This document shows positions 50,192-56,354 of a stretch of DNA of 64,000 nt, in pieces. The notes under the pieces are model-generated. The model made no database searches and was not told the DNA's origin. It worked only from the letters and a program-made list of their open reading frames with translations. Numbering within the stretch: the stretch's first letter is position 1; the number at the start of each line of letters is the position of its first letter. The position numbers and the translations under genes were made by a program. This DNA is from Seleniivibrio woodruffii (lineage in GTDB: Bacteria > Chrysiogenota > Deferribacteres > Deferribacterales > Geovibrionaceae): contig NZ_JAJUIS010000001.1 of NCBI RefSeq assembly GCF_029267515.1, positions 62,001 to 126,000 on the forward strand, given 5' to 3'.

Positions 50192-50220
50192 TTGACACCA
50201 AAATTAATTTACGAAATAAT
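50192..50220 (+). promoter_or_regulatory. Near-consensus sigma-70 promoter of the Phe-rich leader
   Basis: TTGACA (50192-50197), an exact -35 hexamer, and AATAAT (50215-50220) are separated by 17 bases. Transcription should start about 50226-50228, at or just ahead of the leader ATG (50227). Confidence 0.7.
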
Positions 50221-50226
50221 CTATCC

Positions 50227-50301
50227 ATGAAAACAAACAGAACTTCCGCAGAAACCTCTTTTTTCTTTTTTGGTTTCTTTTGGTGCTCAGCCTCTGAGTA
50301 A
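50227..50301 (+). CDS. Phe-rich leader peptide of a putative attenuator
   Basis: A 24-codon frame from ATG 50227 to TAA 50299: MKTNRTSAETS, then FFFFGFFW, then CSASE. Six Phe and one Trp codons lie in a block of eight, as in the E. coli pheA leader peptide. The start codon is within a base or two of the predicted transcription start, so translation would be leaderless; no Shine-Dalgarno sequence exists. It ends 29 bases before a strong terminator. The chance element is that a T-rich run will read as Phe; promoter, stop position, RNA folding and genomic context argue for a real leader. Confidence 0.5.
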   Translation: MKTNRTSAETSFFFFGFFWCSASE

Positions 50302-50342
50302 ACCGTGGAGTTCTGCACGACAGGCTTATAAAGGGCTGTGAG
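50238..50342 (+). ncRNA. Foldable leader RNA with alternative antiterminator pairing
   Basis: CAGAACTTC (50238-50246) pairs with GGAGTTCTG (50307-50315), enclosing two hairpins: GAAACC/GGTTTC (50251-50277) and CTCAG/CTGAG (50286-50298). Alternatively CTCA-GCCT (50286-50293) can pair with GGGC-TG-TGAG (50333-50342), the 5' arm of the terminator, giving an antiterminator. A ribosome stalled on the Phe codons would disrupt the first fold and free 50286-50293. This is manual pairing, not a computed fold. Confidence 0.45.
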
Positions 50343-50366
50343 GACGAACTCACGGCCCTTTTTTTT
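50331..50366 (+). terminator. Strong intrinsic terminator ahead of the first binding-protein gene
   Basis: AAGGGCTGTGAG (50331-50342) and CTCACGGCCCTT (50349-50360) form a 12-bp stem with one G-T pair and a GACGAA loop, followed by a run of eight T residues. No conventional gene lies upstream on this strand, so it terminates the leader transcript. Confidence 0.9.
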
Positions 50367-50409
50367 GGCTCTAAATCAGTTCGGAAACATATATCGGAGG
50401 TATTTTACG

Positions 50410-51522
50410 ATGAAGAAAACGGTAATTACGGTTCTCATGCTTCTTGTCTCGGTATGCGCCTACGCCGAGATAAAGATCGGTGCACTGCTGGCGCTTTCAG
50501 GTCCCATATCGAACCTTGGCAAGCCGGGTCAGGAGATCATCGACAGTGTTGTAGCCGAGGCAAACAAAGCAAACATGCTGGGCGACAAGATAACTGTCGT
50601 ATCATACGACACCCAGTCCATGCCCGACAGAGCGCAGACCTATGCGAAAAAGCTCATCGCCAAGGACAGGGTTGACGTCATAGTCGGTCCAAACGGAACC
50701 GGCGAAGCACTGTCTGTCATAGGCGAGGCGATGTCCTCCAAAACGCCGATGATGGCATTCGCCGGAGGAACCTCAGTCGTTACACCCGTCCGCCCCTTCG
50801 TTTTCAAATCACCCCAGACAACAACAACAGCTATAGAAAAAGCATTCAATTATCTCAGGAAAAAAGGAATAACCAAAATTGCCGTAGCTGCTGACGCAAC
50901 AGGTTTCGGTCAGGACGGTCTCGACCAGATTAACAAATTCTCCAAAGGTTTTACTATTACAGGTATAGAGAAATTCAACGCGACAGACAACGACGTCACC
51001 ACACAGATGTCCAAACTGCTCACAGCGAAGCCTCAGGCAGTTGTAATATGGACAGTGGGCAGAGCCGGAGCAATCGCGGCAAAAAGCCTCCGCGCACTCG
51101 ACCCCAACATACTTATGGTACAGTCGCACGGTATAGCCGACAATTCATACCTTAAACTGGCAGGTCCCGCCGCAGAAAACACTATCATGCCATCAGTAAA
51201 GCTGACAGTGGCATCAAGCATCCCCGCGAAAGATCCGCAGAAAAAAGCAATAGACCTGTTCGTTAAAAAATACGGTAAACTTATTGACGAAACTTCAGTC
51301 CACGCAAGCTATGCCTATGACGGCATAAACATAGTTCTCGCCGCGCTGAAAAAATCCAAAGCTGAAAAGATACCCCTTCAGCAGGCAATGGAAAAGATAA
51401 CCAGATTTGTCGGCGTTACAGGCGTTTACAACATGAGCAAAACCGACCACTGCGGTCTTGACCTCTCTTCAATGGTGATTGTAAGAGTTAAGGACGGCAA
51501 ATTCGTTCTGGAAGAGATGTAA
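50410..51522 (+). CDS. LivK-like periplasmic amino acid binding protein, paralog 1
   Basis: 370 aa type I periplasmic binding protein (LivK/AmiC fold). Signal peptide MKKTVITVLMLLVSVCAYA, then EIKIGALLALSGPISNLGKP, VDVIVGPNGTGEAL, AFAGGTSVV and DATGFGQDGLDQINKF. The ATG at 50410 has GGAGG nine bases ahead; a GTG at 50338 in the terminator is not credible. LivK-like proteins bind branched-chain or aromatic amino acids or related acids. The Phe-rich leader upstream and the aryl-pyruvate/aryl-acetate genes downstream favour an aromatic ligand. No permease or ATPase gene accompanies it. Confidence 0.9.
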   Translation: MKKTVITVLMLLVSVCAYAEIKIGALLALSGPISNLGKPGQEIIDSVVAEANKANMLGDKITVVSYDTQSMPDRAQTYAKKLIAKDRVDVIVGPNGTGEALSVIGEAMSSKTPMMAFAGGTSVVTPVRPFVFKSPQTTTTAIEKAFNYLRKKGITKIAVAADATGFGQDGLDQINKFSKGFTITGIEKFNATDNDVTTQMSKLLTAKPQAVVIWTVGRAGAIAAKSLRALDPNILMVQSHGIADNSYLKLAGPAAENTIMPSVKLTVASSIPAKDPQKKAIDLFVKKYGKLIDETSVHASYAYDGINIVLAALKKSKAEKIPLQQAMEKITRFVGVTGVYNMSKTDHCGLDLSSMVIVRVKDGKFVLEEM

Positions 51523-51555: not shown

Positions 51556-51588
51556 AAAGGTTACGGCTTCCCGCCGTAACCTTTATTT
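51556..51588 (+). terminator. Intrinsic terminator between the two binding-protein genes
   Basis: AAAGGTTACGGC (51556-51567) pairs with GCCGTAACCTTT (51573-51584) around TTCCC, followed by ATTT. The next Shine-Dalgarno sequence begins at 51590, immediately after it. Confidence 0.8.
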
Positions 51589-51599
51589 CGGAGGAAGGT

Positions 51600-52712
51600 A
51601 TGAAGAAAGTTTTAATAGCCGCATCTGTGCTTCTTCTCAGCATATCTGCATATGCAGAGGTGAAGATAGGTGCGCTGCTTGCGCTTACAGGTCCCATTTC
51701 CAACATCGGCAAGCCCTCTCAGGAAATTCTTGAAGGAGTGATAGCCGATGCAAACAAGGCAAATTTCATGGGCGAACCCATCACCCTTGTCACATACGAC
51801 ACACAGGGTATGCCCGACAAAACAATGATGTACGCCAAAAAGCTCATTAACAAGGACAAAGTTGACGTCATAGTGGGTCCCACATCCACAGGCGAGGCAA
51901 TGTCTGTCATCGGATCCATAATGGAGGCGCAGACCCCCACCATGGGCTTTGTAGGCGGCACCCCCCCTGTTGAGCCTGTCCGTCAGTACATGTTCAAATC
52001 ACCCCAGAAAACATCCACCGCAGTTGAAAAAACTTTCGGCTACCTGAAAAAAAAGGGATGGACAAGGATAGGCGTTGTTGTTGACGCCACCGGATTCGGT
52101 CAGGACGGTCTGGATCAGATAAACAAATACGCATCGGGATTCACCATCACAGGTGTTGAGAAATTCAACATGACCGACACCGATATGACAACACAAATGA
52201 AAAAGATCCTGAATACCAAGCCGCAGGCTGTGGTTGTGTGGACAGTCGGCAAGGCGGGTGCAGTAGCCGCCAAGAGCCTCCGTTCTCTGGACAAAAATAT
52301 TCCGCTCATCCAGTCCCACGGAATTGCAGACTTCGCCTATACGAATCTGGCAGGTACCGCTGCGGAAGGATCTATAATGCCGGCACTTAAAATAGTTGTC
52401 GCAAAGCAGCTCCCCGCGACAGACCCCCAGAAAAAGGCGATTGATCTTTTCAACAAACGCTACGGCAAACTCATCAACGAAACATCCGTCCACGCAATCT
52501 ATGCCTACGACGGCGTTAACCTTATGCTGAACGCCCTGAAACGCGCGAAAAACGAAAAAATAAGCGTTATTCAGGCGCTTGAGACCACAAAGAATTTTGC
52601 CGGAGCAACAGGCGTTTACAACATCACAAAAACAGACCACTGCGGACTGGATATGTCGTCGCTGGTCATGGTCAGAATAAAGAACGGTCAGTTTGTTCTG
52701 GAAGATATGTAA
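51600..52712 (+). CDS. LivK-like periplasmic amino acid binding protein, paralog 2
   Basis: Exactly as long as paralog 1 (370 aa) and highly similar throughout: MKKVLIAASVLLLSISAYA signal peptide, EVKIGALLALTGPISNIGKP, VDVIVGPTSTGEAM, DATGFGQDGLDQINKYASG and the same C-terminal TGVYNITKTDHCGLDMSS block. Differences concentrate in the ligand cleft region (for example AFAGGTSVVTPVRP versus GFVGGTPPVEPVRQ), suggesting a changed ligand preference. GGAGG precedes the ATG directly after a terminator. Expression may depend on read-through or its own promoter, which I cannot identify. Confidence 0.9.
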   Translation: MKKVLIAASVLLLSISAYAEVKIGALLALTGPISNIGKPSQEILEGVIADANKANFMGEPITLVTYDTQGMPDKTMMYAKKLINKDKVDVIVGPTSTGEAMSVIGSIMEAQTPTMGFVGGTPPVEPVRQYMFKSPQKTSTAVEKTFGYLKKKGWTRIGVVVDATGFGQDGLDQINKYASGFTITGVEKFNMTDTDMTTQMKKILNTKPQAVVVWTVGKAGAVAAKSLRSLDKNIPLIQSHGIADFAYTNLAGTAAEGSIMPALKIVVAKQLPATDPQKKAIDLFNKRYGKLINETSVHAIYAYDGVNLMLNALKRAKNEKISVIQALETTKNFAGATGVYNITKTDHCGLDMSSLVMVRIKNGQFVLEDM

Positions 52713-52718
52713 TTAACT

Positions 52719-52802
52719 GAGACTGCCGCGTCAGCCGTTAACGGCTTCCTCGCAGAGAGTTCCATACGTCTTCGTGAGGAGCATGAGCGACGCGGCGATC
52801 TC
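52719..52802. repeat. Palindromic intergenic repeat, family A copy 5
   Basis: GAGACTGCCGCGTC at the left is mirrored by GACGCGGCGATCTC at the right. CCTCGCAGAGAG and CGTCTTCGTGAGGAGC form the inner arms, with CCGTTAACGG as a small extra hairpin. It lies between the second binding protein and iorA. Confidence 0.75.
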
Positions 52803-52883
52803 AATAAAAGCTCCATTTTTTCTTTAAATTCTCATATCATTGGTGTAGTATCTCAATCTGTCATTAATTTTACGGTGATTCAG

Positions 52884-54641
52884 ATGGTAAACGGTTTTTT
52901 TCTCGGCAACGAGCTTATCGCTCTCGCCGCTGTTAATTCGGGAGTCAAAAGCGCATACGCATATCCCGGCACCCCTTCAAGCGAAATACTTTCAGCTTTT
53001 CAGAAATTCGCACCTGAACGCTATGCCCAGTGGTCGCTGAACGAAAAGATAGCCCTTGAGCTTGCCTCGGGGGAAGCCATATCCGGTTCGTCCACACTCT
53101 GCTGCATGAAGATGGTGGGACTGAACGTCGCCGCCGACCCGCTTTTCAGTGTTGCCTACACAGGCGTTGACGGTGCTATGGTGCTTGTTTCGGCAGACGA
53201 CCCCGGACCCTACAGCAGTCAGACCGAGCAGGACAGCCGCATGTATGCCGTCAGTGCAAGAGTGCCGGTGCTTGACCCCTGCAACCCGCAGGACGCGTAC
53301 CGCCTCACTATGCTTGCATATCAGATATCAGAAAAATACCGTCTGCCCGTGATGGTCAGACCCGTTATGCGCGTCTGCCACTCCCGCCAGAACTTTATGG
53401 CTGACGACTTTTCGGCGATACCGATTCGTGAAACGATTCTCAGCGGAACTTTCCGTAAAGACATGCCGCGCTGGGCGGCGACACCTAAATTCCGCCGCAT
53501 ACTCCACGAAAAGCTGAATAAAAACCTCGATTTTCTCGCTGCGGAAATGGCGCCCAAAATACCTGAAAAACGATACGACATGGCAGTGGTCGCCTCCGGT
53601 TATGCCTATGCCATGGCAAAAGACGTAATAGATGAAATGAATCTTCCGTTCGACATAATAAAGGTGGACATGCCCTTCCCTCTGGACAGACAGTTCGTTA
53701 TAGAGGCGGAGATGGTTTACGATCGCATCGTGGTTCTTGAAGAGACATTTCCCGTTATTGAACATAACTTTACCATAAAGACCGAGGGCAGGCTCACGGG
53801 ACTTGTTCCCTCCGAAGGGGAACTGACCGCGGATATAATCGCCGACATACTGCTCAAGACAGCGGGCATAACACGCGAAACGGCGAAAGCCGGGATAACC
53901 GTCAACGAATCACCCGTCAATCTCAAACCGCGCCTCTGCGCAGGCTGCGGCCACAGACCCGCCTTTTATGCGATGAAGCTGGCGGCTCCCAACGGCATCT
54001 TCCCCGGCGACATAGGCTGCTACACCCTCGGCGTTAATCTGAACGCCGTCGATACCTGCATCTGCATGGGAGCATCCATCACCTTTGCAGAAGCCATGAA
54101 GCGCTCCAATCCGGACAGACCCGTGATATGCACCATAGGTGATTCCACGTTTTTCCATACCGGCGTTGCGGGACTAACAAACGCAGTTGTGAACAGCGCG
54201 CCGATAGTGGTTGCCATACTGGACAATGAAACGACAGCCATGACAGGCTTTCAGCCTGTACCCCACAAGACCGGAAAACTCACAATAGAGCAGGCTTGCG
54301 CGGGAGCAGGTGTTAAGCACATAGTAAATGCAGACCCGTACAACATGAAAAAAGGAGTGGAGGCGCTGAAACAGGCGCTGGCATACGCCCACACTGACAA
54401 CGCACCTGCCGTAGTGATATTCACTAAGGAGTGCGTCACCAAGACCAGATACAAAAACAAAAAGACTGCCGAAATAACCGATGCCTGCACGGACTGCACC
54501 ATCTGCTATGAAAAGTTTGAGTGTCCGGCGATATACAGGGACAAAGCAAAACGCATGGCAAAAATTGACGAGTCCGCGTGCATTGGCTGCATGGTCTGCA
54601 TACAGGTCTGTCCGCAGAAGGCCATAGGGGTGAAGAAATGA
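52884..54641 (+). CDS. iorA: Indolepyruvate ferredoxin oxidoreductase, alpha subunit
   Basis: Oxidative decarboxylation of aryl-pyruvates (from Trp, Phe, Tyr) to aryl-acetyl-CoA, reducing ferredoxin. About 585 aa: pyruvate:ferredoxin-type domain (YPGTPSSEIL, DPGPYSSQTEQDSR), LCAGCGHRPAFYA and TPP-binding GDSTFFHTGVAGLTNAVVN, ending in two 4Fe-4S motifs (CTDCTICYEKFECP and CIGCMVCIQVCP). The ATG at 52884 is preferred over a GTG three codons earlier. Its stop overlaps iorB as ATGA. The iorAB-paaK order defines a fermentative aromatic amino acid degradation route. Confidence 0.94.
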   Translation: MVNGFFLGNELIALAAVNSGVKSAYAYPGTPSSEILSAFQKFAPERYAQWSLNEKIALELASGEAISGSSTLCCMKMVGLNVAADPLFSVAYTGVDGAMVLVSADDPGPYSSQTEQDSRMYAVSARVPVLDPCNPQDAYRLTMLAYQISEKYRLPVMVRPVMRVCHSRQNFMADDFSAIPIRETILSGTFRKDMPRWAATPKFRRILHEKLNKNLDFLAAEMAPKIPEKRYDMAVVASGYAYAMAKDVIDEMNLPFDIIKVDMPFPLDRQFVIEAEMVYDRIVVLEETFPVIEHNFTIKTEGRLTGLVPSEGELTADIIADILLKTAGITRETAKAGITVNESPVNLKPRLCAGCGHRPAFYAMKLAAPNGIFPGDIGCYTLGVNLNAVDTCICMGASITFAEAMKRSNPDRPVICTIGDSTFFHTGVAGLTNAVVNSAPIVVAILDNETTAMTGFQPVPHKTGKLTIEQACAGAGVKHIVNADPYNMKKGVEALKQALAYAHTDNAPAVVIFTKECVTKTRYKNKKTAEITDACTDCTICYEKFECPAIYRDKAKRMAKIDESACIGCMVCIQVCPQKAIGVKK

Positions 54642-55147
54642 TTCAGGGCGTAATATGCGGAAAAGGCGGACAGGGGGTCATAACCCTTAACGCCATGATA
54701 GGCACTCTGGCGGCTAACATGGGAATACCCGCGGTTTCGGCGGAAACACACGGCATGGCAATGCGCGGCGGTTCCGTCGCCACATATATAAAGATTGGCG
54801 AATGTCTCAGCGCCGCTGTTGCAGAGGGTGCTGCGGACTTCATCATCAGCCTCACAAAAGACGAGGCGCTTCGAAACATAAACTTCATAAAAAAGGACGG
54901 GGTGCTCATTGTTGACACCGACCAGCCCTTCGACTTAACCGGAGTAAAAATATTTTCCCTGCCCGCTTCAGATATAGCTGAAAGGGAGTTCGGCGGCAGA
55001 ATTTACGGAGGACAGGTGCTTTTAGGCATTTTCCTTGGCTGCTTCGACGGTATTGATACCGCAAAAGCACTTGAGATACTGAAAACCGCACCGAAAATCA
55101 GCATCGCCGCCATAGAATACGGAGTCAAATATGCACAAACTCACTGA
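54638..55147 (+). CDS. iorB: Indolepyruvate ferredoxin oxidoreductase, beta subunit
   Basis: Gamma-type subunit of 2-oxoacid oxidoreductases, 189 aa. The opening IQGVICGKGGQGVITLN and AETHGMAMRGGSVATYIKIG are the family signatures for the CoA-side domain. It pairs with IorA. It overlaps iorA by four bases and paaK by 17, indicating equimolar, coupled synthesis. Confidence 0.94.
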   Translation: MIQGVICGKGGQGVITLNAMIGTLAANMGIPAVSAETHGMAMRGGSVATYIKIGECLSAAVAEGAADFIISLTKDEALRNINFIKKDGVLIVDTDQPFDLTGVKIFSLPASDIAEREFGGRIYGGQVLLGIFLGCFDGIDTAKALEILKTAPKISIAAIEYGVKYAQTH

Positions 55148-56354
55148 TATACAGCTCCTCAAGCTCGGAACAACTCTACACCACATAAAGAAGGCAAACC
55201 CCTTCTATTTTCAGAGATATGAAACGGACCGCGTTACATCATACGAAGACCTTACAAAAATGCCTTTCATTACAAAAGACATACTCCGTCAGGGCTACCC
55301 CTTTGCATATGCCTGTGCAGACACTAAAAACTGTATGCGGATGCATATGTCAAGCGGCACCACCGGAAAACCTATCATAAACCCCATGACCGAAGGGGAC
55401 GTTAACCAGTGGGGCGAGATAATGGCGCGCTGCTACACCACAGCTGGTGTGACCAGCGAAGACACCGTACAGATCACCCCATCTTTCGGGCTTTTCAACG
55501 GCGGATTCGGGTTCCATTACGGCGCGGAACGTCTTAAAAGTTTCATAATCCCCATGGGCGCCGGACGCTCAATGCTCCAACTCCAGTTCATTAAAGATCT
55601 TGAAACAACGTGCATCTGTGCAATAGCCTCGTATCCTCTTAGGCTTATGGAGGTTGCAAAACAGGAAGGCTTTAACTTTAAAGAGACTAAGCTCCGAGTG
55701 GGCATCTTCGGTGCGGAAACATGGACGGACGGTATCCGCAGACGCATCGAACGCGAGATGGGAATTGAGACGTTCGACATCATCGGCATGACGGAGACAG
55801 GCGGCGTTGGTCTCGGCATAGACTGTAAGGATCACAGCGGCATACACGTATGGGACGACCACTACATAGTGGAGATTGTTGATCCGGAAACGGGTGAACC
55901 CCTCCCGGACGGCGTGGAAGGTGAGATGGTTGTGACAACTCTAACCCGCGAAGGTCTGCCTCTGATACGTTACCGCACGCGCGACATCACAAAAATCATA
56001 AGCCGCGAACCCTGTAAATGCGGACTGCACACGGTTAAGATAGCCAGACTCAAAGGCAGAACCGATGACATGCTGAAAGTGAAGGGCGTAAACTTCTACC
56101 CCGCACAGATAGAATCCATCCTCATGGAGTTCACAGAAATAGGCGAAGAATACCGCATCATCCTTGACAAGAAAAAGGGCAAGGGCGACGTTACACTCGC
56201 TGTTGAGACAAATAAGATAAGCGACGATGCAAAGGACAGGCTGGACACAACTCTGTACGATTTTCTTGGCTTCCGCGTGGACGTGCAGTACCTGAAACCG
56301 GGCACTCTGGAGCGCTCCGCAGGCAAGGCCATCAGGGTTGTAGACAACAGATAG
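55131..56354 (+). CDS. paaK: Phenylacetate-CoA ligase
   Basis: Adenylate-forming enzyme joining aryl-acetates to CoA, or run in reverse to recover ATP from aryl-acetyl-CoA. 407 aa, ANL superfamily. AMP motif MSSGTTGKPIINP (~71-83), FGAETWTDGIRRRIE, IGMTETGGVG, LIRYRTRDIT and the C-terminal GRTDDMLKVKGVNFYPAQIE hinge with catalytic Lys region. GGAG lies seven bases before the ATG inside iorB. With IorAB it would turn phenylpyruvate into phenylacetate plus ATP, the known archaeal-type strategy; direction here is inferred. Confidence 0.93.
   Translation: MHKLTDIQLLKLGTTLHHIKKANPFYFQRYETDRVTSYEDLTKMPFITKDILRQGYPFAYACADTKNCMRMHMSSGTTGKPIINPMTEGDVNQWGEIMARCYTTAGVTSEDTVQITPSFGLFNGGFGFHYGAERLKSFIIPMGAGRSMLQLQFIKDLETTCICAIASYPLRLMEVAKQEGFNFKETKLRVGIFGAETWTDGIRRRIEREMGIETFDIIGMTETGGVGLGIDCKDHSGIHVWDDHYIVEIVDPETGEPLPDGVEGEMVVTTLTREGLPLIRYRTRDITKIISREPCKCGLHTVKIARLKGRTDDMLKVKGVNFYPAQIESILMEFTEIGEEYRIILDKKKGKGDVTLAVETNKISDDAKDRLDTTLYDFLGFRVDVQYLKPGTLERSAGKAIRVVDNR

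Follow-up and report, generated by a model that had tools for sequence, protein, structure and literature searches.

Upstream of a periplasmic binding-protein gene, pbp1, of Seleniivibrio woodruffii lies a leader that is very probably a ribosome-mediated transcription attenuator of the phenylalanine type. The signal read by such an attenuator would be the charging of tRNA-Phe, and perhaps that of tRNA-Trp too. The mechanism is well known; the lineage, which we place in Deferribacterota, and the target gene are unusual. The window, i.e. the whole stretch of 64,000 nucleotides under analysis, had been read from its letters alone as carrying an attenuator that responds to Phe shortage. Comparison of five Seleniivibrio genomes (G000, to which the window belongs, G025, G026, G027 and G028) sustains the core of this sequence-only reading, Phe-type ribosome-mediated attenuation, through conservation of the leader and a counterpart ahead of trpE, but the named antiterminator is a weak candidate and a different strand takes its place in G025. 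The closest named relatives of the window's genome are two MAGs, one of Seleniivibrio and one of Deferribacteraceae, with 95-97% identity over the binding protein.

Architecture and conservation of the leader

The leader consists of the following features of the window:

50192-50220, + strand: sigma-70 type promoter, TTGACA-17-AATAAT (11 of 12 consensus positions matched)
50227-50301, + strand: leader-peptide frame of 24 codons with FFFFGFFW (open reading frame; start, stop, frame and Phe/Trp run kept in all five genomes)
50238-50249, + strand: strand 1 of the closing helix (MFE fold; paired with 50305-50315 it outscores shuffles in each of the five genomes)
50250-50278, + strand: hairpin AGAAACC/GGUUUCU around four Phe codons (MFE fold; not kept in G028)
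50282-50304, + strand: hairpin at the end of the frame, holding the proposed antiterminator strand 50286-50293 (folds)
50305-50315, + strand: strand X of the closing helix, directly after the stop codon (MFE fold, shuffle test)
50330-50366, + strand: intrinsic terminator with a 13-bp hairpin, a 6-nt loop and eight T (fold; conserved in all five genomes)

The promoter is present just as the sequence-only reading described it, with TTGACA at 50192-50197, a 17-nt spacer and AATAAT at 50215-50220. It ranks top of eight promoter-like hits in the region, and TTGACA, the 17-nt spacer and (A/G)ATAAT are preserved in all five genomes. The leader ATG at 50227 lies 6 nt past the -10 hexamer and lacks a Shine-Dalgarno sequence. 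The same holds for all ten Phe and Trp leaders of the five genomes, in which the ATG stands 5-7 nt past the -10 hexamer with no Shine-Dalgarno-like motif ahead. Thus, the start codon is expected to coincide with the first transcribed base or to adjoin it, and leaders of both types look leaderless. A precedent for a leaderless leader peptide is the trpL RNA of Sinorhizobium meliloti, which begins at the ATG of the leader frame (PMC7298713).

The 24-codon frame with its FFFFGFFW run was likewise found at 50227-50301, where it translates in G000 to MKTNRTSAETSFFFFGFFWCSASE followed by the stop. The pattern TTYTTYTTYTTYNNNTTYTTY, i.e. (Phe)4-X-(Phe)2, has a single occurrence in the 2.83-Mb genome, at the leader, in a genome-wide count of Phe-rich frames that covered this one pattern. 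All five genomes carry the same arrangement ahead of the same gene (promoter, ATG, in-frame stop, Phe run, closing helix and terminator), and the leader peptides of the other four are MKINRISAETSFFFFGFFWCSASE (G026), MKMNRTFTETSFFFFGFFWCSASE (G027), MNMNRFFAAASFFFFGFFWCSSPE (G028) and MIENNVNTLFSGFFFSFFFCFWHSDCHE (G025). Among the features whose conservation upstream of orthologous genes had been suggested as a check, the Phe codons, the closing helix and the terminator are therefore kept throughout the set, and none of the five genomes retains the terminator with the Phe codons or the frame lost. Since four of the leaders resemble one another closely, independent comparisons are few; the most distant leader is that of G025, which retains eight Phe codons and the Trp codon while the remaining peptide is mostly different. 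That little else is kept there points to selection on the codons rather than on the peptide. Across the set, the number of Phe codons is six (G000 and G026), seven (G027) or eight (G028 and G025), always with one Trp. The in-frame Phe count is above that of dinucleotide shuffles of the same frame in G027 (0.042), G028 (0.007) and G025 (0.003), and is ordinary in G000 (0.17) and G026 (0.18), the stretch being T-rich. Taken over the five genomes, these results suggest that T-richness alone poorly explains the Phe run.

Competing folds and proposed switching

The RNA from 50227 to 50372 has an MFE fold of -57.1 kcal/mol (z = -6.0), and none of 200 shuffles is as good. The closing stem around two hairpins, put at 9 bp in the sequence-only reading, is present in this fold but has 11 bp with one bulge. 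Similarly, the terminator hairpin (50330-50361) and its eight T (TTTTTTTT at 50359-50366) are there as described, but with 13 bp instead of 12. Shuffles rarely match the closing helix in any of the five genomes (fraction 0.001-0.027), with strand 1 shifted in register in G028 and both strands of new sequence in G025.

The proposed pairing of 50286-50293 with the 5' arm of the terminator can form, but in G000 it is no better than in shuffles (0.25), and the energy of this duplex exceeds chance in G028 alone (0.013), with a borderline value in G027 (0.06). Constrained folds were calculated with a ribosome placed on the Phe codons, so that the bases beneath it could not pair, and with the last terminator strand not yet made. 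Under these constraints, the 5' arm of the terminator pairs with the equivalent of 50286-50293 in G027 and G028; in G025 the partner of this arm is instead the strand that follows the stop codon. For most stall positions in G000 and G026, the MFE structure has local hairpins; the antiterminator appears in the MFE only with the ribosome at codon 17, and partially in the ensemble. The complete terminator, once made, is thermodynamically favoured in every case, so antitermination must be kinetic, as it is in known attenuators. An antiterminator is plausible from these folds, with 50286-50293 as a weakly supported candidate for the strand. The restriction of above-chance pairing to G028 and the change of strand in G025 count against Phe attenuation.

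Leaders of pheA, pheST and trp rely on ribosomes stalled at the cognate codons. In the leader of pbp1, transcription would begin at or beside the ATG, and the first ribosome would load onto a leaderless mRNA. With ample Phe, the ribosome would reach the stop codon and depart, or 50238-50249 would pair with 50305-50315, and by either route the 13-bp terminator would fold and transcription would halt. When Phe is scarce, the ribosome would wait at codons 12-18 and keep the 5' strand from the closing helix, the freed downstream RNA would hold the 5' arm of the terminator, and RNA polymerase would enter pbp1, then pbp2 by read-through and possibly iorAB-paaK.

Putative target genes, their probable ligand and the proposed direction of the pathway

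Downstream of the leader, the window contains:

50410-51522, + strand: pbp1, Peripla_BP_6 binding protein that the attenuator would control directly (Shine-Dalgarno GGAGG at 50396-50400)
51558-51582, + strand: stem-loop separating pbp1 from pbp2, with a terminator-like form in relatives (perhaps a partial stop or a stabiliser of the 3' end)
51600-52712, + strand: pbp2, Peripla_BP_6 paralogue of pbp1, 67% identical (family match, alignment)
52884-54641, + strand: iorA-like, divergent indolepyruvate ferredoxin oxidoreductase alpha subunit (570 bits, equivalog cutoff 651 bits)
54638-55147, + strand: iorB-like, beta subunit (under the equivalog cutoff)
55131-56354, + strand: paaK-like phenylacetate-CoA ligase (under the equivalog cutoff)

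The binding-protein gene expected after the terminator is pbp1, starting at 50410; the genes behind it, pbp2-iorA-iorB-paaK, had gone unseen in the sequence-only reading and suggest aryl-acid metabolism. The order of pbp1, pbp2, iorA and paaK is identical in all five genomes. IorA, IorB and PaaK all score under their equivalog cutoffs, so these names are approximate. IorA and IorB (52884-55147) appear to form a divergent subfamily below the NCBIfam cutoffs, and a second iorA elsewhere in the genome (G000:C29) is 38% identical to that of the window.

Terminator-like stems follow pbp2 in G025, G027 and G028, and a weak conserved promoter-like sequence lies upstream of iorA in four genomes. Given the intergenic terminator-like stems and this promoter-like sequence, position indicates direct control only for pbp1; control of pbp2 would need read-through, and iorAB-paaK may have a start of its own. 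The stem-loop between pbp1 and pbp2 is fully terminator-like in G028 and G025 (L100 9010-9065; L097 9690-9755), and that of G025 resembles the leader terminator. In addition, a palindromic repeat of about 90 bp lies between pbp2 and iorA (52715-52806) and has 18 matches in G000; sequence of similar appearance precedes trpE in G027 and pheS in G000.

The target had been taken for a periplasmic amino acid binding protein. It does belong to Peripla_BP_6, but an amino acid is a doubtful ligand: the protein scores 26 bits with the branched-chain amino-acid model, whose cutoff is 477, and in both binding proteins the alignment places Thr and His at the positions of LivJ Asp121 and Glu226, which we take to be the ligands of the ammonium group. 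At positions 79 and 102, a hydroxyl residue is retained in both proteins. Among solved structures, 3sg0, 7ylt, 4dqd and 3uk0 are their best relatives, and several of these are presumably aromatic-acid complexes, including those with benzoylformate and phenylpyruvate. The missing acidic residues, together with these relatives, make an aryl acid the better guess, and the target probably binds something other than an amino acid.

Two such binding-protein genes stand inside a paaK-ACT-pbp-pbp-liv-paaK cluster in G006, another member of Deferribacterota (L135; genes recognised by sequence, not by family search). The matching cluster of G000 (L130 5730-12251, G000:C26; genes again recognised by sequence) reads paaK-ACT-livHMGF-paaK, without binding-protein genes. 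Their presence in one cluster and absence from the other suggests that the window's pair may be the binding proteins of that separate Liv permease, relocated under Phe control.

By family matches, solved relatives and residue alignment, the binding proteins, IorAB and PaaK fit a salvage of aryl acids to Phe, and the binding-protein genes most likely serve aryl-acid uptake that would feed Phe synthesis at Phe shortage. Tentatively, we propose that the Phe-starvation attenuator drives an anabolic route in which phenylacetate and other aryl acids would pass through the binding proteins and the separately encoded Liv permease to PaaK, and then, through reductive carboxylation by IorAB, to phenylpyruvate and Phe. 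Genes that Phe shortage turns on would make better sense in salvage than in degradation. Class I benzoyl-CoA reductase requires two PF06050 proteins; the genome has only one, and the aerobic phenylacetate genes PaaA/PaaC were not found in it. A complete ring-degradation route is thus not evident in a search that covered PaaA/PaaC and, through PF06050, benzoyl-CoA reductase of class I. Methanococcus maripaludis is known to make aromatic amino acids from aryl acids via IOR (cited in PMC4162585).

One may argue, along the lines of the sequence-only reading, that the same attenuator controls proteins that bind phenylalanine or some other amino acid, in a simple uptake response to shortage. This is possible but somewhat unlikely: the sensed codon is Phe, Peripla_BP_6 is a LivK-like Pfam family, and the annotation of E. 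coli LivJ/LivK names branched-chain/Leu and Phe binding, but Thr and His replace the two LivJ residues taken to hold the ammonium group, the closest solved structures presumably include several aromatic-acid complexes, and the neighbours are iorAB-paaK, while the liv permease cluster is flanked by two paaK genes. It is improbable that the leader is instead a tnaC-like sensor of high aromatics, in which free Phe/Trp or the nascent peptide would arrest the ribosome, block termination and turn on IorAB catabolism. IorAB is able to run oxidatively, in the catabolic direction, and a Trp codon is conserved after the Phe run, but the G025 peptide shares only the Phe/Trp codons with the rest, the leader peptide presumably lacks a TnaC-like ending, and the absence of PaaA/PaaC and the single PF06050 protein leave a catabolic reading with no ring-degradation route found.

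The Trp counterpart and known attenuators

In all five genomes, trpE is preceded by a frame with NVKNWWWR, pairing strands of its own and two tandem terminators (L121 1195-1400 on G000:C35 in the window's genome; L119, L120, L122 and L123 in the others). This leader serves as an internal positive control, since it suggests that the lineage uses leader-peptide attenuation. Like the Phe leader, it has a short frame with a run of cognate codons, termination ahead of the gene, and an ATG close to the -10 hexamer with no Shine-Dalgarno; unlike it, it has a WWW run, tandem terminators, a biosynthetic target and strand 1 over the Trp codons. In G027 (L119), extra repeat-like sequence lies between the Trp-leader terminators and trpE.

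It is very unlikely that the Phe frame merely reflects a T-rich stretch, with the terminator acting alone or with some other factor: the Phe count is unexceptional for the base composition in G000 and G026, but frame, start, stop and Phe run are kept even in the diverged G025, and the Trp counterpart shares the same geometry. There is a similarly slim chance that the terminated leader RNA or peptide acts in trans, like rnTrpL/peTrpL, besides or instead of control in cis, since the layout, short and leaderless with a stable hairpin at the 3' end, matches that of S. meliloti rnTrpL (PMC7298713), but the peptide sequence is poorly preserved in G025.

No Phe leader was found upstream of pheA or pheS (two of the five genomes examined for pheA, three for pheS). 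The ior-paaK orthologues of G010, G011 and G038 have none either, which counts against Phe attenuation, and the binding-protein pair of G018, also apart from its permease cluster, has no leader. A scan of the other Deferribacterota loci fetched, for an aromatic-rich frame plus terminator, detected no leader outside the genus; it is not exhaustive, for the long terminator loop of G025 made it miss that genome's own leader. Given the loci searched, the Phe leader seems to be a genus-level feature. Rfam scans of the window, the leader, two relatives and the trp leaders gave nothing credible, with no match to the T-box model and none to Phe_leader (RF01859) at the leader even at E = 10.

Among known systems, the enterobacterial pheA/pheST leaders (RF01859) are alike in their short Phe-rich frame, competing stems, intrinsic terminator ahead of the gene and expected response to uncharged tRNA-Phe; here, in contrast, the target is a binding-protein gene beside ior-paaK, and the ATG stands at the predicted transcription start. 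The RNA of S. meliloti trpL (rnTrpL) starts at the leader-frame ATG, as is predicted here, but it concerns Trp and a biosynthetic target in Alphaproteobacteria, and roles in trans have been shown there (PMC7298713). ABC-leaders (Naville and Gautheret 2010) are also premature terminators upstream of ABC transporter genes, but the examples in the available text are other elements, mostly from Firmicutes, and include no Phe leader peptide and no Deferribacterota (PMC2965389). That 2010 survey gives leader-peptide attenuation as known only in Proteobacteria and Actinobacteria, and adds Bacilli (PMC2965389). Within the literature searched, no paper turned up that combines attenuation and leader peptide with Deferribacter or describes a Phe attenuator for transporter or aryl-acid genes.

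In summary, the Phe and Trp leaders provide strong sequence evidence of leader-peptide attenuation within Deferribacterota, and the leaderless layout of both types suggests a simple rule for the genus Seleniivibrio that is open to testing. The Phe sensor is tied here to genes of aryl-acid type, and not to pheA or pheST, which makes the direction of IorAB-PaaK in anaerobic bacteria answerable by experiment. If the salvage of aryl acids to Phe is true, the regulator would show which way a reversible pathway runs that commonly carries a catabolic annotation.
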